A stretch of DNA of 62,528 bases from a virus. Under the pieces are notes generated by a model that ran no database searches, was not told the origin of the DNA, and saw only the letters and a program-made list of their open reading frames with translations. Shown here in pieces: positions 8,804-52,236 of this stretch; position 1 is the first letter of the stretch; the number at the start of each line of letters is the position of its first letter. The stretch lies in IMG/VR virus record IMGVR_UViG_3300010885_036529, positions 1 through 62,528 of that record. One strand, written 5' to 3'. Made by a program: the position numbers and the translations under genes.

Positions 8804-9157
8804 ATGAAAAAAGACATGCAGACCTTTAATGAGTTCATCGGTGAAAAAGAGGACATTGCAGACTTCGAAGCGATAATGAACGAATCTTTCGATCAGAATG
8901 CTATCGATGAAGCAGTAGAAGCTTTCATCAAAAAAGCAAAAGAAGAAGGTTATACCCTAGAACAATTGCAAGAAGAGCTCGCTAACGAAGGATTCATCGG
9001 ATCTATTTTAGGAGGTCTCACTGGCTTTGCTCTAGGCCAATCAGTTGGTAAAATCGTAGCAAACGCGCTAGGAGTCGAAAAAGGACTCTTATACGATCTG
9101 TTCACGAGTAGATTGATCGGAGCTGCTATCGGATATCACTTAGGAAAAAGAATATAA
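8804..9157 (+). CDS. Putative head-internal protein with capsid-targeting N-terminus
   Basis: 117 residues. It begins MKKDMQTFNEFIGEKED, close to T4 capsid-targeting peptides (MKTYQEFIxE type), with a possible prohead-protease site after FIGE. A helical acidic middle is followed by a Gly/Ala-rich hydrophobic segment (about residues 63-85, GFIGSILGGLTGFALGQSVG) and a second near 103-115, resembling membrane-active or glycine-zipper segments. It heads a series of four genes whose products share this N-terminus. Packaging in the capsid and ejection with DNA is inferred; the glycine-zipper part could insert in host membranes. Confidence 0.6.
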   Translation: MKKDMQTFNEFIGEKEDIADFEAIMNESFDQNAIDEAVEAFIKKAKEEGYTLEQLQEELANEGFIGSILGGLTGFALGQSVGKIVANALGVEKGLLYDLFTSRLIGAAIGYHLGKRI

Positions 9158-43230: not shown

Positions 43231-44925
43231 ATGGCCGGATTTTCAGATAGAAGGGGTTCATTGACCAAAGGCAATCCAGTATCGGATGCCCTTAAGCGTC
43301 TAAGCCGTCTAGGTATGAACTATGATGATATGGTCTTGAAAAATTCAAGAGCTGTAGGTTTCACAGAGAACCAGATAGGCTTTGGGACTTTCAACCCGAT
43401 GGGTTCAGATTCAGACGACATGTACTATCTCTTCGCATCTCTGTCTATGACGGACATTTCGAACAAGAAAAATATCTCTTATTTCGATAAGACTTATTTG
43501 AAGAAGAGAGATCAATTAAGAAACTTCGCAGTTCAAGATGAAATTGAGGACATTCTCGATACTGTAACTGATGAAGCTCTAGTATATGATGAGACTAACT
43601 ACTTTGCTTATCCGATCATAAATACATCAGTAAGCAAAGAAGTAAAAGACAATCTCATCGACAGTTACAATAAGATCTACGAATATTTTGGATTCAGTGA
43701 TGGTCAATCAGCATGGAACTATTTCCGTAAATGGTTGGTTGACGGTTACTTGGCATTTGAAATTATTTACGATGATGAACAAAGACACATCATCGGTTTC
43801 AAAGAATTAGATCCGGTATCTTTGATGCCAGCAGTCGATAAAGATTCTGGTAAAAAGATCTGGATTCAATATAAAGGTGGCGGTCCAAAAGAGAGAACCC
43901 TTTTCGATTCTCAGATCATCTATCTCTCATATTCATCAGTTAACTCTCCATCGAGAGTATCTTACGTAGAAAGATTGATCAGATCTTTCAACTTATTAAG
44001 AATCATGGAACACTCCAGAATTATTTGGGCTGTAACGAACTCTAGTTTCAAAATGAAGTTTGTGATTCCTGTAGGTGGTAAGTCAAAGACCAGAGCTAAA
44101 CAGTCTCTAGCCCAATTGATGAATAACTACAGAGAGATAGTTAATTTTGATATGCAATCTGGAGAGATCCAGACGAACGGTAAACCGATGATGCAATTCC
44201 ACAAGGAATATTGGTTACCTTCGAAAGACGGTGAACAACCAGAGATTGAAACTTTAGCGAATGATGGACCGGCTTTATCAGATACAGAAGCATTACAATG
44301 GTTCTCTGATAAATTAAAACTCGCATCTAAAATTCCTTTTAGCCGTTTTGATAAAGATTCTCCTGCAACTTATGAAATGGCTGCAGAAGGCATGGACAAA
44401 GAGGAGATTAAATTTGCCAAGTTCATCAACAGATTGAGATCTATCTTCCAAGAGATCCTAGTAAAGCCACTCTATTTACAGGTATGTTTAGACCATCCTG
44501 AATTAGAAGACGATACAAACTTTAAGGGTAATCTTACGATCAAATACAACAAGGACAACGTCTTTGAAGAATTGAAGCAAATGGAACTTGCTTCGAAGAG
44601 AATAGACTTCATCTCACAAGTTAGAAGCAGTCTTACTGAACAAGACAAGGATATGAACGAAGTACCTTACTTCAGTCTTAACTTCTTGATCAAGAAATAC
44701 GGTGGATTCACTGAAGAAGATTTGAAAAAGAACAGGAGAATGAAAGAAGTTGACGATCTAGTTAAACAAGGCTACGAACAAGGCGATGCAGAAAAAATTG
44801 TGGACGGGGAAGATCCTAAGAAATTTAAGAAAGCTAACGCTGAAACCGATGGCGATTTAGGAATTGATGCTGAAGGGGATGGTGGAGCAGGTGGTTCGGA
44901 AGACATTCCAGGCCTCGAACTCTAA
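43231..44925 (+). CDS. 20: Portal vertex protein, gp20-like
   Basis: 564 residues (T4 gp20 524). 'DEIEDILDTVTDEALVYDE' near 105, 'FRKWLVDGYLAFEIIYDDEQRHI' near 168, 'FKELDPVSLMPAVDK' and 'IIYLSYSSVNSPSRVSYVERLIRSFNLLRIMEHS' region near 230-265 follow T4-type portals closely. The dodecameric ring nucleates prohead assembly and is the channel for DNA packaging by gp17. The C-terminal 40 residues are acidic and Gly-rich. A late promoter for the protease gene follows. Confidence 0.9.
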   Translation: MAGFSDRRGSLTKGNPVSDALKRLSRLGMNYDDMVLKNSRAVGFTENQIGFGTFNPMGSDSDDMYYLFASLSMTDISNKKNISYFDKTYLKKRDQLRNFAVQDEIEDILDTVTDEALVYDETNYFAYPIINTSVSKEVKDNLIDSYNKIYEYFGFSDGQSAWNYFRKWLVDGYLAFEIIYDDEQRHIIGFKELDPVSLMPAVDKDSGKKIWIQYKGGGPKERTLFDSQIIYLSYSSVNSPSRVSYVERLIRSFNLLRIMEHSRIIWAVTNSSFKMKFVIPVGGKSKTRAKQSLAQLMNNYREIVNFDMQSGEIQTNGKPMMQFHKEYWLPSKDGEQPEIETLANDGPALSDTEALQWFSDKLKLASKIPFSRFDKDSPATYEMAAEGMDKEEIKFAKFINRLRSIFQEILVKPLYLQVCLDHPELEDDTNFKGNLTIKYNKDNVFEELKQMELASKRIDFISQVRSSLTEQDKDMNEVPYFSLNFLIKKYGGFTEEDLKKNRRMKEVDDLVKQGYEQGDAEKIVDGEDPKKFKKANAETDGDLGIDAEGDGGAGGSEDIPGLEL

Positions 44926-44943: not shown

Positions 44944-44955
44944 GATATATAGAAA
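44944..44955 (+). promoter_or_regulatory. Late-type promoter element
   Basis: GATATATAGAAA, 30 bases (start to start) upstream of the prohead protease ATG. Confidence 0.65.
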
Positions 44956-44973: not shown

Positions 44974-46818
44974 ATGTCCAAGAAACTACTTATTCTAGAA
45001 CGTTCTGGAGAAACCTTAGTACATAAAGGTGATGATGACAACATCACACTCGAAGGTACGTTTACCCAGTTCAACATAAAAAACAAAAATGGCAGAATCT
45101 ACGAAGAGAAAGAATTCATGCCTCACCTTAAAGAATTACAAGAAAAGGTGAAAAAAGGCAAGCTTCTCGGAGAACTTGACCACCCTACAAAATTCGATAT
45201 CTCTCTACAAAACGTATCTCACGTTATTGAAGATCTTGAATACGATCCAGCTAAGAAACAGGTTGTCGGTCGCATCAAATTGTTGAATACTGACAAAGGA
45301 AAACAAGCCAAAGCATTAGTAGAAGCCGGTATTCCACTTCACATCTCTTCAAGAGCAGCAGGCAATGTTGGTAGTGACGGTAAAGTAAAAATTCAAAAAC
45401 TCTTCACTTATGATCTTGTAGCAGATCCAGGATTTGCTGCTGCTGAACTTAGAAGAGTGAATGAGTCATTTGGTTTCGGTGATGATGAAGATCTTTTCAT
45501 CTACGAAGTATCAGAAGACAATTCTATAGAGAACCCAATAAATACAAAAAATACACAAGAAACGATGAGCAATCCAAATTTTGTCTCTATCGAGGACTTT
45601 AACAGGTATTCAGAGTACGTAAAACAACAGTTCGAGTCTTTGAAAAATGGTCAAGAATCATCAGAAAAACTTGATAAAGTTGTCGAGTACACTAATCACT
45701 TAGCTGAGAACATGAACAAGCTTTTTGGCTATACTAATTATTTAGCTGAAAACCTAGATAAAAATATCTCTCATGGCGATTATGTCGTAGAAAGCTTAAA
45801 TAGCATCAAAGAATATTGTAACTACCTCGCAGAAAATGTAAGCAAAGGAATTTCTTATTCTGAATATGTTGCTGAACAAGCTAATCAATTAGTAGATTAT
45901 ACTAAATATGTAGCAGAAAAAGTAGACCAAGGTCTTTCTTACTCAGAGTATTTAGCAGAGAATCAAGACAAGATGATTCAATTCTCTAATTACCTAGCTG
46001 AACACCAAAACAACAGCATTGCATACTCTAAGTATCTTGCTGAAAGAATGGACCAAGGCATCAGCTATACCGAATATCTCGCTGAAAACCAAAACAACAT
46101 GATCAAGTACTCAGAGTACATCAAAGAGAATGTTGAAAACCTTGGCAAATACGCTAATTATTTAGCTGAAAACTTAAATGCTGTAAACGAAAAAACTGTA
46201 GAAGAAGCTCCAAAGACAGAAACTCCAGTTACAGATGCTGCTCCTGCTAAAACTCAGGCTCAAGCAATCGAAGAATCAGCAACTGCAACAGTAGCTAAAG
46301 TGGATGCACTTCTTGAATCAGTAAAAACGAAGAAAGAAGAAACCACTAAAGACGAGAAGCATTTCATGAGATTCTTGGACACTACTAAGAGAAACGAATT
46401 TGAATCTCTTAATGAAGGTGTACAAACTCAAATCGTTGAAGCTTTTGCAACTAACAGATACATGTCAGTACAAGATGCTAATAGAATCTGGAACTCATGT
46501 TTCACACCTGCGGCTCCAGCTAAATTAGATTATGTAGCTAATATGCCTGAAAGATACAAATCAATGTATGAGTCTCTAAATGAGTCTCAAAAAGATTCTA
46601 TCAGCAAACAAGCTAAATTGTTTGGCTCATTAGAAACTCAATATCAAATTGATAACTTCTGGCAAACAAGAGATCTTAGACCAAGAAAAGTTGAGATCCA
46701 AAAGATCAATGAAAACGAAGCTCCAGCAGCAATAGTTGAAAATTCTCCAGCAGGAGTACCTCTACAAGTCGTAAATGACGTTAGAGAATCTCTTATAGCA
46801 AGATTCAAAAATATCTAA
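44974..46818 (+). CDS. 21: gp21-like prohead protease fused to a 14-residue-repeat domain
   Basis: 614 residues; T4 gp21 is only 212. Residues 1-197 are the protease, with catalytic His70 in 'LLGELDHPTKF' and Ser125/126 in 'PLHISSRAAGN'. From Met198 the protein continues with a short helix, twelve 14-residue repeats (239-406, consensus YSxYLAExxxxxIx), a Pro/Ala/Thr linker and a helical C-terminal domain (about 445-614). An A-rich leader-like stretch coding NTKNTQET precedes Met198 (ATG 45565), so a separate 417-residue protein may also be made, as with lambda C/Nu3. The protease should cleave scaffold, core and capsid proteins. The repeat part may act as scaffold. Confidence 0.85.
   Translation: MSKKLLILERSGETLVHKGDDDNITLEGTFTQFNIKNKNGRIYEEKEFMPHLKELQEKVKKGKLLGELDHPTKFDISLQNVSHVIEDLEYDPAKKQVVGRIKLLNTDKGKQAKALVEAGIPLHISSRAAGNVGSDGKVKIQKLFTYDLVADPGFAAAELRRVNESFGFGDDEDLFIYEVSEDNSIENPINTKNTQETMSNPNFVSIEDFNRYSEYVKQQFESLKNGQESSEKLDKVVEYTNHLAENMNKLFGYTNYLAENLDKNISHGDYVVESLNSIKEYCNYLAENVSKGISYSEYVAEQANQLVDYTKYVAEKVDQGLSYSEYLAENQDKMIQFSNYLAEHQNNSIAYSKYLAERMDQGISYTEYLAENQNNMIKYSEYIKENVENLGKYANYLAENLNAVNEKTVEEAPKTETPVTDAAPAKTQAQAIEESATATVAKVDALLESVKTKKEETTKDEKHFMRFLDTTKRNEFESLNEGVQTQIVEAFATNRYMSVQDANRIWNSCFTPAAPAKLDYVANMPERYKSMYESLNESQKDSISKQAKLFGSLETQYQIDNFWQTRDLRPRKVEIQKINENEAPAAIVENSPAGVPLQVVNDVRESLIARFKNI
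45688..46191 (+). repeat. Twelve degenerate 42-bp (14-residue) repeats
   Basis: In frame, each unit begins Y/F/H-x-x-Y/H and carries (L/V)AE at positions 5-7 (for example YTNYLAENLDKNIS, YSEYLAENQDKMIQ). Twelve units run without gaps. The 14-residue period equals two heptads, consistent with a coiled coil or a helical solenoid. Confidence 0.9.
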
Positions 46819-46822
46819 TATT

Positions 46823-47434
46823 ATGTTTATAAAAGACTTCGGTTCTTTCTTAAACGAAGCAGAAGGTTACAACGGTAAAGGCATCTTTACCGTTGCTACT
46901 TTGTCTCAAAAGAACTTATTTGTTTGTGAAATATCAGGCCAATTATCTGACGGTGCTTGGGAAAATACAAAGCCTTACGATCATTGGGAACCGTGGAGCA
47001 ACGCTCCAATAAAAGTTGGTTCTAACGTAGGAAGAGATTTCCCAGTTAAGAAAGACGGTTACAATCTAGGTTCTCTTATCCAATACGTAGGAGATAGAAT
47101 GTTAGCGGTAGGCGCAGCTGGCGCAGCAGGTTGGGATCTCGGAGAAAGCAGCTGGACACCAGAACACAGTGCAGTAGAAAATTTCTTCGCTGCTAGCAGC
47201 GTAGCTAATTTAGAAAGAATGACAATTTCTGAAGACTTTGAACAGCACTTTCAAAATTTCCTAGAAAAGAACAAATCTGGATATACTAGCAAGTACGTAC
47301 CTGTAGCAGAAAAGAACAAGAAGAAACTCGAAGATACTTGGAACGCCATTAAATCTGGTAGATACGGTATTAGACAACTCACAAGAGATCTTACTGATAT
47401 TTCAAAGGCGATGAAAATTTACAAGAGAAGTTAA
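46823..47434 (+). CDS. Putative head protein with protease-site N-terminus
   Basis: 203 residues starting MFIKDFGSFLNEAEGYNGKG. FGSFLNEAE is nearly the same as the T4 gp23 maturation site FGSFLTE/AE, so cleavage after FLNE by the gp21-type protease is likely. A compact domain follows with several Trp ('DHWEPWSNAP', 'GWDLGESSWTPEH') and a basic C-terminus. It lies between protease and major capsid genes. A core, vertex or decoration role is possible; no family recognised. Confidence 0.55.
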   Translation: MFIKDFGSFLNEAEGYNGKGIFTVATLSQKNLFVCEISGQLSDGAWENTKPYDHWEPWSNAPIKVGSNVGRDFPVKKDGYNLGSLIQYVGDRMLAVGAAGAAGWDLGESSWTPEHSAVENFFAASSVANLERMTISEDFEQHFQNFLEKNKSGYTSKYVPVAEKNKKKLEDTWNAIKSGRYGIRQLTRDLTDISKAMKIYKRS

Positions 47435-47553: not shown

Positions 47554-49230
47554 ATGCACAATCAATTAATCAATGAAGCAGAAGTTGTAAAGACTTGGGC
47601 TCCTGTGATTGAAGAGGCTACAGGCATTAACGATAAGAGCAAGCTCTCTTGGATGTCTAAGTATTGCCACTTCCATCAACTAAACGAAAACGTGTACAAC
47701 CAAGTTCACCTTAACCCTAACATGAACGTTTACGGTATGGGTGCTGTATCATTCCCTGGCGATCCAGGATTGAACACTGGTTTCCCTACACAAGCATCAG
47801 GTTCTGGTGACAAGCCTTTCAGTTTACTTCCACTTGCAATGCAAGTAGCAGCTCAAACTGTAGGTTTAGACTTAGTTCCAGTTGTTCCAATGAGCGGTCC
47901 ATTAGGCGTTCTTACTTATTTAGACTTCATCTACCAAGGTGGTCGTCTTGATAGTTTGGAAACACCTTTGATGGTTAGAATTGAAGGAGATAAAACTACC
48001 TACACTTCTGGCTATTCTGCATCTTCTTTCGCAGGTAACACAGTTTACTATTTAAGAGATTCAGGAAACACTACACAATACGCATTGACTTTCATCGGTC
48101 TTTCTCGTATTGATGGATGGCCAATTTTCAAAGTGAACGCTTGGGCTTCATCAGCACAGCAACCAAACGGTACTGCAGGCGCAATTACTTTAGCAGCAGC
48201 AGTTGACGCAGGTAAGATCTACACAGCAGCAGCAAGTGGAACTAAAATTGCAGATCTTACTGCAGGTGCAGCTCTTCTTGTTAAAGCTCTTGAAGATCAC
48301 GTAACAGGTTTCTCTGGTCAAGGTCTTGCTGGTTATGGTAACACTGCAAACAATGTAACTTCTAACCAACCTTACTTGAGACAAAATGGTGAAAACACAG
48401 CTGACAATCAGTTAGGTCTTTCATTATTCAACAAGTCAGTTGAAGCTTTCACATACCAAGTTGCTGCAGCAGTAACTAGAGAGCAAGTTCAAGATTTGAA
48501 ACAATTCGGTATCGATGCAGTAGCTCAAGTAGAAGCTGTATTAGTTAATGAATTAACTCAATCTATCAACAAGCTTATCTTAGCTAGATTGTTCGAACTT
48601 GGAGCTACAAACGCGGAAAAAGTTTATACCATCGATGGTACTAACTTGAACCTTTATGTTGCATCTACTTCAACAACAGCTTCTTTACCACTTGGTAACG
48701 ATTGGGAAGGAAACGCAGTAAGTATTTCAACTACTTCTACAGTTCCAACTTCAGGTGATAACGCAGGTACTTTACAAAGAAGAATTCTTTCTAAGATCCT
48801 TGCATCATCTAACTTGATCGCTATCAGAGGTCGTAGAGGTGCAGCTAACTTCGCCGTAACTAACGGACAAGTTGCTTCAGCTTTACAAGATATCGCAGGA
48901 TTCATCACTTATCCTTTGGCTAACACTGTTAACCAAGCAGGTGGTTCTCTTTACCCAGTAGGAGCAGTAGCAGGAGTAACAGTATATGTTGATCCTAACA
49001 TGAGCTGGACTGATACAAGAATCTGCGTAGGTAGAAAAGGTGACGGAAACTCTCCAGGTTTGGTATTCATGCCTTACTTAATGGCAGAAAGCGTACAAAC
49101 AATCGCAGAGCTTACAATGGCTCCTAAGATTGCAGTAAAATCAAGATTCGCTCTTGTAGACGCTGGTTTCTTCCCATTCCTTTATTACTTCACAATGAGA
49201 GTAAGATTTGATAACTATCAAATCATCTAA
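47554..49230 (+). CDS. 23: Major capsid protein precursor, gp23-like
   Basis: 558 residues (T4 gp23 521). 'EVVKTWAPVIEEATGI' near the N-terminus matches the T4 'LLNKWKPLLEGEG' segment, and 'LLPLAMQVAAQTVGLDLVPVVPMSGPLG' region near 91-118 with 'DVGFFPF'-like C-terminal 'ALVDAGFFPFLYYFTMRVRF' is the T4-type HK97-fold capsid. The LINE/AE site at residues 5-8 and another before residue 60 are candidate maturation cleavages. Residues 58-88 share a Gly/Pro-rich motif with the 21055 product. It has its own promoter, long leader and strong terminator, as expected for the most abundant virion protein. Confidence 0.9.
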   Translation: MHNQLINEAEVVKTWAPVIEEATGINDKSKLSWMSKYCHFHQLNENVYNQVHLNPNMNVYGMGAVSFPGDPGLNTGFPTQASGSGDKPFSLLPLAMQVAAQTVGLDLVPVVPMSGPLGVLTYLDFIYQGGRLDSLETPLMVRIEGDKTTYTSGYSASSFAGNTVYYLRDSGNTTQYALTFIGLSRIDGWPIFKVNAWASSAQQPNGTAGAITLAAAVDAGKIYTAAASGTKIADLTAGAALLVKALEDHVTGFSGQGLAGYGNTANNVTSNQPYLRQNGENTADNQLGLSLFNKSVEAFTYQVAAAVTREQVQDLKQFGIDAVAQVEAVLVNELTQSINKLILARLFELGATNAEKVYTIDGTNLNLYVASTSTTASLPLGNDWEGNAVSISTTSTVPTSGDNAGTLQRRILSKILASSNLIAIRGRRGAANFAVTNGQVASALQDIAGFITYPLANTVNQAGGSLYPVGAVAGVTVYVDPNMSWTDTRICVGRKGDGNSPGLVFMPYLMAESVQTIAELTMAPKIAVKSRFALVDAGFFPFLYYFTMRVRFDNYQII

Positions 49231-50899: not shown

Positions 50900-51401
50900 G
50901 AGTCCAAAAGTAAGTATCAGAGATTGGGGCAAGGCGCCGAGAAAACACGGCATCTTGCTCAAATTTTTGACACCAGATCAGAAAAGATTCCTTTTCGATA
51001 ACGATCATCTTAAATTCATTTCTAGAAACAAGGAGACTATGGAAGCAGTCTTCCACGTCTTTTTCCAAGAACAGTTGAGAAAAGACGATAGGGCAGCTTT
51101 TAATAACCCTTTTAGTGGTACTTTTACCAACCGTTACCAACTCAATAAAGATGCACAATTAGTAGATTGGGAATGTGCTATTTGCAAGACTGAGATAAAA
51201 TCTAGCATGATAGATTATTCACCTGAAAACTTTCTTTGCGATAAATGCAGGGAGGTTCACACTGGAGCAAAGATAATAGATTCTCGTATCAAGCAAAATT
51301 CACTAAAATTCACAGAGCATTGCAAAGACATGCTCACTCAAGAACAGAGAGATTTTCTAAGATTTTTGAAAATTAATCGAAAGCAAGAGCTTCTTCGATA
51401 G
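50805..51401 (+). CDS. Zinc-ribbon protein of unknown function
   Basis: Up to 198 residues from ATG 50805, which overlaps the scaffold gene by 95 bases in another frame and has AAAAAGGAAC upstream. No later ATG exists before the likely domain, which begins near 'VSIRDWGKAPRKHG' (from about 50910), so the start is uncertain; a TTG further in is possible. Two Cys pairs, 'CAICKTE' and 'CDKCREV', about 29 residues apart, form a zinc ribbon. It overlaps the convergent minus-strand gene by 29 bases. Could be a nucleic-acid-binding or late regulatory factor; unknown. Confidence 0.6.
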   Translation: MLKKKLIKQLLKNQSQHSKASKILSQRKTSLKSPKVSIRDWGKAPRKHGILLKFLTPDQKRFLFDNDHLKFISRNKETMEAVFHVFFQEQLRKDDRAAFNNPFSGTFTNRYQLNKDAQLVDWECAICKTEIKSSMIDYSPENFLCDKCREVHTGAKIIDSRIKQNSLKFTEHCKDMLTQEQRDFLRFLKINRKQELLR

Positions 51402-52236
51402 AGATCTTTTTGAAGCATGTTAGCTTACTGATCTGAGAAGCATTGTAAACTTTTATCTTTCTTTTCTCTAGAGGTTCTACTAGAGAATCGAAGCTAGGAA
51501 CCATTAACCTCTCCATCGTATCAGAATCAGCAGTAGAAACATATCCTTCGTGCCAGTGGGTTTCTTTACCTTTTGTCTGCATATCAAATCCAAGAAGAAC
51601 AATCCTTTTAGCTCCTAAATGATATGCTAAATTGATAGCAGCGTATCCTGAATTTCCGCCGTCTCTGAGACCGTATGACATTGTCTCTAGTCCAGTTTTT
51701 CCAGTATTTAGAAGATTAATGATGTCGCTTCTTTTCGGTTGTGGTCTACATGTGACTTTGATACCTGTAAAATCTTCTATCTCTTTTGGGTACCATTCGA
51801 AGAATCGAGTATCGCTCCAATATAGAACCTGTGCAAATGGAAGATGCAAGAAAGCTTTGTTGACAGCAATGACAGTCTTGTCCTTTAACTGATTAAAATC
51901 AAATTCTTTGAGAGAAGGACCGCCACCCACGATATAAATGGTATCACCGAGAAAGATGGGATCGATGTAAGTATAATTGTCATACTTCCATACGCTAGCG
52001 ATCTTTCGATGTTTTTCGTTTGGTGGTATTGAGGCTCTGCTCTCACGAGTTTCGGCCATTTCTGCTAACTTGTTGACTGCTCTGTCAACCATTGAACTAG
52101 ACTTTGAGGTGATTTCTAGAACTCTTACGGGTCTAGGGTCATCGAAAGTTTTTTGAATTTCTTGAGGACTTACCTTGATAATGTTAGTCCTACTTCTGAC
52201 GATATATTCGCCAGTACCATTTCTCCTTGTTGCCAT
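51373..52236 (-). CDS. DUF115/MptE-like Rossmann-fold protein
   Basis: 287 residues on the minus strand. 'IYIVGGGPSLKEFDF' (about 101-115), 'TVIAVNKAFLHLPFAQVLYWSD', 'GNSGYAAINLAYHLGAKRIVLLGFDM' region are the hallmarks of the DUF115-like family that includes 6-hydroxymethylpterin diphosphokinase MptE-like and glycan-transfer-related proteins common in phages. Substrate unknown; glycan or nucleotide-sugar chemistry is possible. The minus-strand leader carries GGATAAATAGTTAT, a loose match to the late element, 3-16 bases from the ATG. Convergent with the plus-strand zinc-ribbon gene with a 29-base overlap. Confidence 0.7.
   Translation of the reverse strand: MATRRNGTGEYIVRSRTNIIKVSPQEIQKTFDDPRPVRVLEITSKSSSMVDRAVNKLAEMAETRESRASIPPNEKHRKIASVWKYDNYTYIDPIFLGDTIYIVGGGPSLKEFDFNQLKDKTVIAVNKAFLHLPFAQVLYWSDTRFFEWYPKEIEDFTGIKVTCRPQPKRSDIINLLNTGKTGLETMSYGLRDGGNSGYAAINLAYHLGAKRIVLLGFDMQTKGKETHWHEGYVSTADSDTMERLMVPSFDSLVEPLEKRKIKVYNASQISKLTCFKKISIEEALAFD

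Follow-up and report, generated by a model that had tools for sequence, protein, structure and literature searches.

Introduction

The prohead protease and scaffold genes of bacteriophage lambda, C and Nu3, are nested, the scaffold being read from an in-frame internal start, and C is an S49-type protease. To our knowledge, protease/scaffold nesting of the lambda kind is not known for T4-type phages, and a search of the open-licence literature brought up no description of a nested start at this position for such phages. In the herpesviruses, UL26 and UL26.5 overlap in frame and have a common 3' end, giving a protease-scaffold fusion and the scaffold alone, with a release site between the two parts (PMC4498786). 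In T4, the cuts made by the protease gp21 fall after L/I-X-E, and gp22 is broken down into multiple fragments (PMC9026906).

Here we analysed a 62,528-nucleotide stretch of viral DNA (IMG/VR record IMGVR_UViG_3300010885_036529, hereafter the window). A reading made from the letters alone (the sequence-only reading) had proposed a nested protease/scaffold arrangement with an internal start at Met198. The proposal is supported by conservation of this Met, by a synonymous bias towards A and by a model of gene starts, and we consider it likely that T4-like giant phages, including one of 735 kb, carry a nested protease/scaffold gene whose two products share a 3' end.

A gp21-type protease fused to a repeat-bearing C part

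An intact open reading frame of 614 aa on the + strand encodes a protease domain followed by a second region, the C part. The features of its first part are as follows (arrows mark proposed cuts).

44974-46818, + strand: long product, protease-scaffold fusion, 614 aa; fusion kept in 61 representatives below 85% identity
44974-45468, + strand: protease domain, residues 1-165, T4 gp21 (S77) type, by Pfam, PHROG and Foldseek
45181-45183, + strand: His70, aligned with T4 gp21 His85 (motif LDHP / LNHP); invariant in alignment A1 (26 relatives)
45346-45348, + strand: Ser125, aligned with T4 gp21 Ser140 (motif SSRAA / SSRGL); invariant in alignment A1 (26 relatives)
45457-45468, + strand: VNE↓S, putative site of self-release where the protease core ends
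45499-45510, + strand: IYE↓V, second putative site of self-release, within the linker

Residues 17-133 match Pfam Peptidase_S77 (E 1.4e-14; 54.5 bits against a gathering score of 27), residues 17-252 match PHROG 207, head maturation protease (E 1.8e-37), and the top PDB fold match of the predicted model is T4 gp21 (5jbl; Foldseek E 5.7e-10, prob 1.00). The two gp21 residues with which His70 and Ser125 align, His85 and Ser140, are catalytic. Sequence and predicted fold identify the N-terminal part as a prohead protease of the T4 gp21 type, for which cleavage after L/I-x-E is predicted. The first 197 residues had been equated with a whole gp21; the gp21-type assignment stands, whereas 'whole' was loose, since the protease core extends only to about residue 165, from where a variable linker of ~32 residues leads on to the domain junction. 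V162, N163 and E164 of the first putative release site are invariant in alignment A1 (26 relatives), and T4 gp21 has ITE↓S placed after its own core; in the second, I176 is conserved in 20/24 and E178 in 18/24 representatives.

The C part consists of a short variable linker, twelve repeats, a second linker and a helical C-terminal domain.

45688-46191, + strand: twelve gap-free 14-residue repeats of YxxY[LIV]xE type, residues 239-406, predicted helix
46357-46683, + strand: conserved helical C-terminal domain, residues ~462-570 (~110 residues), by AF2

Exactly twelve gap-free repeats of 14 residues were found, as had been claimed, with units beginning at residues 239, 253, ... 393 and [LIV]xE at unit positions 5-7 in 12/12. 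Comparison shows the same period throughout the family, in which [LIVM]xE sites are most often 14 residues apart (517 intervals). The description of the 417 residues as a helical region dominated by repeats holds for the presence of the repeats but not for their share, as they fill 168 of the 417 residues and the remainder is linker and C-terminal domain, the latter having gone unmentioned in the sequence-only reading. The structure prediction called for by the sequence-only reading returned a helix for the repeats, although at low confidence, and the full-length model is poor over them. The C-terminal domain is better modelled (AF2 mean pLDDT 81 over residues 432-614), and a structure search with it gave no PDB match below E 1. 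The repeat unit YSEYLAE↓N may resemble the targeting peptide of T4 internal proteins.

Two variants of the repeat region were observed. In the subclade L033-L038 the helical middle is still repeat-like, with WT..IAK-type units replacing Y..YLAE; the LAE triplet is missing from these repeats, and cleavage-like [LVM]xE triplets lie at other places. One contig (L142, 5030-5032) has an in-frame stop within the repeats, past which the frame is open, reflecting either an error or a mutation.

The fusion in relatives

IMG/VR contigs contain the same fusion, the last scan giving at least 562 relatives, and it is also carried by genomes of uncultured giant phages (462-735 kb). Removal of sequences that were at least 85% identical left 61 representatives, and in 61/61 the protease and the C part are fused in one frame with a common 3' end; none of the 61 has split protease and scaffold genes, an arrangement seen only in PAU, outside the family. 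Homologues of the C-terminal domain were also found in Tenacibaculum phage PTm1, in Prevotella Lak phages and in Sphingomonas phage PAU. The fusions of PTm1 and of the Lak phages differ in the middle region, and no internal start comparable to the junction Met with its leader was found in them. A fusion can thus work without a nested start, since these have none at the junction. The search for separate homologues of the C-terminal part, which had been suggested as a check, was answered by PAU, where this domain lies apart from the protease gene and directly 5' of the major capsid protein (MCP) gene.

In the PAU record (L048, 8306-9333), gp155 ends at an A9 run; were the frame to slip by one base there, gp155 would continue into an unannotated ORF that encodes the scaffold C-terminal domain. 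This run may be a sequencing error or a programmed frameshift, and gp155, not gp152, may be the PAU scaffold. In Flavobacterium phage MaF61 (L049, 5908-10122) a 1404-aa 'putative prohead scaffold' starts with a gp21-like protease and represents a far longer protease fusion. The host of the window phage is likely to belong to the Bacteroidetes, the phylum to which phages that may or may not be of this family, described as having a 'prohead core scaffolding and protease' gene close to those for MCP and portal, have been assigned (PMC9723584).

Neighbouring genes and a putative late-promoter motif

The fusion gene lies among head genes.

43231-44925, + strand: portal protein, T4 gp20 type, upstream neighbour (Pfam Portal_T4 7.2e-74)
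44945-44953, + strand: ATATATAGA, putative late-promoter motif, 20 nt 5' of the protease ATG
46823-47434, + strand: 203-aa protein with a capsid-targeting-like N-terminus (MFIKDFGSFLNE↓A), present only in close relatives; putative role
47554-49230, + strand: MCP, T4 gp23 type (Pfam Gp23 6.4e-35)
47680-47688, + strand: LNE↓N, likely MCP propeptide cleavage site, of the motif type found in the repeats
1031, 8793, 12649, 16971, 24093, 39632, 44945, 49292, 55649 and 60286, + strand: copies of ATATATAGA

The MCP site aligns in relatives as LNE/LYE/INE. The motif ATATATAGA occurs 10 times in the window against 1.2 expected, always on the + strand and in several cases directly 5' of a gene start, and is probably the phage's own late promoter.

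Two further observations concern the window. N-termini such as MKHLKLFNSFLNE, MKHIKLFEDFVNEA and MFIKDFGSFLNEA (window positions 8804, 10182, 11285, 46823 and 49325, + strand) resemble T4 capsid-targeting sequences cut after L/I/V-x-E, and the proteins that bear them are candidates for packing in the head. A lone reverse-strand gene among the head genes (51373-52236, - strand) matches PHROG 4603 (alpha-2,3-sialyltransferase, E 2.5e-42).

A probable internal start at the domain junction

45565-45567, + strand: internal start codon, Met198, in-frame ATG (Met conservation, leader, start model)
45565-46818, + strand: proposed short product, scaffold alone, 417 aa (Met conservation, start model, cleavage motifs)
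45537-45564, + strand: A-rich leader of the internal start (A content)

The ATG at 45565 is indeed in frame, encodes Met198 and lies at the domain junction. A Met lies no more than 3 residues from the aligned junction in 35/36 sequences of the first sets and in 25/25 of a set fetched after the hypothesis had been formed, or 60/61 overall, the exception being L077. Relatives lacking Met198 and the leader had been named in advance as grounds for abandoning the proposal; when they were looked for, 60 of 61 proved to keep the Met, and the A bias of the leader was kept as well. The window protein has nine other internal Mets; for one of them a counterpart within 3 residues exists in 19/24 representatives, but for each of the remaining eight in only 2-8 of 24. 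The linker near the junction is barely alignable: in columns 188-203, the Met excepted, none exceeds 15/24. In the giant-phage group, the junction Met alone is weaker evidence, because the linker there is conserved as protein (NDLFNM).

The A content of the 20 nt before the Met198 ATG is 0.65 against a gene mean of 0.39, a value unmatched by any other in-frame ATG. The A-rich 20-mer that had been placed immediately before the ATG is present, but it lies at 45537-45556, 8 nt before the start codon. Across the 21 representatives outside the giant-phage group, mean A in the 20 nt upstream of the junction is 0.68 against a column mean of 0.40, which ranks 1/588 columns, and with amino acids held constant the choice of A-richer synonymous codons peaks at columns 195-204 in the same sequences. 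In the later set of 25, the mean z at the junction is 2.0 (column sd 0.42), and columns 191-202 are the twelve highest. Neither chance nor composition accounts for the A-rich leader, both having been rejected with the codon-controlled test and the independent set. In the giant-phage group upstream A is only moderately raised (rank 31/570), and the synonymous A bias ranks 3/570. In addition, the window and L002 have AATAAATAYAAAAA in common in different reading frames (NTKNT and NKYKNT), and its retention across a frame change points to selection on the nucleic acid.

We then scored start sites with a weight matrix over positions -20 to -1, trained only on the MCP, portal and protease starts of 46 representatives. 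Junction ATGs of the training genomes have a mean of +2.2 bits and 14 giant-phage junctions from genomes outside the training set one of +2.1 bits, compared with -8.2 bits for 366 other in-frame internal ATGs; the sequences scored are related, so that P values are not to be taken literally, and the use of representatives and of the later set serves as the safeguard. The window junction ATG scores +2.96 bits and the next best window ATG -3.7, and the junction is the top-scoring internal ATG in 51/60. True gene starts score higher (6.6) than junctions; the junction site may be weaker, or the difference may follow from the exclusion of stop codons. A Shine-Dalgarno-like motif precedes 3/45 window genes, and A is enriched at -3 and -14 to -11. 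Initiation in Flavobacterium johnsoniae follows this pattern: ribosome profiling found it to be promoted by A at -3, -6, -12 and -13, and Shine-Dalgarno sequences are absent from the phylum (PMC6847099). As far as comparison of sequences can show, the internal start and its leader are under selection, and from this we infer that a short, scaffold-only protein is made from Met198.

A short product could also arise from its own internal late promoter, as in the case of herpesvirus UL26.5, instead of by internal initiation on the long mRNA. TAAATA-like stretches that resemble the T4 late promoter TATAAATA do occur 20-28 nt before the ATG in the window and in L002, L006, L012, L013 and L040, but many relatives have no TATA-like stretch at the junction and no copy of the phage's own repeated motif, ATATATAGA, is found at the internal start. 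A junction promoter was rejected on the latter ground, and we hold this origin of the short product to be unlikely.

Quite unlikely, in our estimate, is a second alternative, that only the full-length fusion is made and that it frees the scaffold by cutting itself at VNE↓S or IYE↓V, in the manner of phage P2 gpO-like fusions, with the Met and the A-rich stretch being relics of an old fusion or features of a K/N/E/T-rich linker. The near-universal VNE↓S site and the existence of PTm1 and Lak fusions without a junction start would fit such a route, and a K/N/E-rich linker is A-rich through composition. A relic, however, would decay over divergence to ~30% identity, yet the Met is found in 60/61; nor does composition account for an A bias that persists among synonymous codons, or for AATAAATAYAAAAA being kept across the frame change. 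Initiation at Met198 on the long mRNA is the reading that we prefer.

The C part as a probable scaffold

In the non-repeat C part, L/I-x-E occurs at 2.27-fold the shuffled expectation, and neighbouring spacings are not raised in the same way. The corresponding value is 2.53-fold for nine T4-type gp22s, 0.66 for portal and 1.25 for MCP. Within the repeats the enrichment is 2.70-fold, but periodicity alone also raises the counts of ExL and LxK; the shuffle test of the repeats is therefore weak and was set aside in favour of the non-repeat part. Cleavage-motif enrichment is thus established by comparison, and the C part appears to behave as a scaffold cleaved by a gp21-type protease. A profile comparison (hhalign) of the C part with the nine gp22s gave a probability of 1.6%, and homology to T4-type gp22 was rejected; since none was found, our claim is that the C part works like gp22, not that it is gp22.

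The MCP gene starts no more than 200 nt past the fusion stop in 43/59 relatives, and because it follows the fusion directly in most of them there is no room between the two for another scaffold gene. A scaffold role is thus backed by position, by the cleavage motif and by the PAU arrangement. That the C part is a different core or internal protein, brought along with the protease, and that a separate unrecognised gene encodes the true scaffold, is very improbable: its lack of sequence homology to gp22 and the labelling of a different gene, gp152, as scaffolding in the PAU record speak for it, but the lack of space before the MCP gene, a cleavage-site density that matches that of gp22 and a PAU counterpart directly before the MCP speak against it.

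Proposed mechanism

We propose that one late gene gives rise to two proteins. In the full-length product, the gp21-type protease and the scaffold of the prohead core would form one covalent chain. Initiation at Met198, behind an A-rich, weakly structured leader of the Bacteroidetes kind without a Shine-Dalgarno sequence, would give the scaffold alone, probably in excess. The scaffold tail of the long form would bring the protease into the core at a fixed dose and position. Once the prohead is complete, the protease would release itself at VNE↓S and IYE↓V and cut the scaffold after L/I/V-x-E, each 14-residue repeat being cut once, and the core would exit as small peptides, making space for DNA. 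In this scheme the short protein itself, its excess, its scaffold function and the cleavages are what we infer.

A more far-reaching version is possible but doubtful: Bacteroidetes-type T4-like giant phages, including the 735-kb one, would combine a herpesvirus-style nested gene with a self-destructing scaffold of tandem 14-residue units, each of them containing one protease site, resembling a T4 capsid-targeting peptide and doubling as docking and cutting unit.

Comparison with known systems

The locus resembles T4 genes 21 and 22 in its protease family, catalytic motifs, place between portal and MCP, and helical, E-rich scaffold dense in L/I-x-E. It differs in that T4 has genes 67, 68, 21 and 22 between portal and MCP, 21 and 22 being separate. 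T4 gene 21 does have an internal start, but it lies within the protease and gives a shorter protease. In lambda, as proposed here, the scaffold is the C-terminal part of the protease protein and an in-frame internal start yields it alone, whereas the S49-type protease of lambda is unrelated to that of the fusion, as are the sequences.

The proposed nested layout is also that of UL26/UL26.5, and the proteases fold distantly alike (weak Foldseek hits); the herpesviruses, however, are eukaryotic viruses with an unrelated scaffold sequence, and a separate promoter is unsupported in most relatives of the window phage. The PTm1 'prohead core scaffolding protein and protease' and the Lak proteins have the same domain order and a homologous C-terminal domain, but differ in the middle region and in having no junction Met with a leader. 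PAU has a homologous protease (gp151) and, in the region after gp155, a homologous C-terminal domain adjoining the MCP gene; unlike in the window, its protease and scaffold are separate, and the domain joins gp155 only via the one-base slip in the A9 run.

A nested layout would offer a simple explanation of how the protease of a giant phage is dosed and positioned. Standard annotation missed a highly conserved second start, and the main scaffold of these phages is therefore likely to be absent from databases. Nested protease/scaffold genes were previously known from lambda-like phages and herpesviruses; here they appear, under clear selection, in a wide T4-type giant-phage family, and the separate genes 21 and 22 of T4 would be only one among the T4-type solutions.
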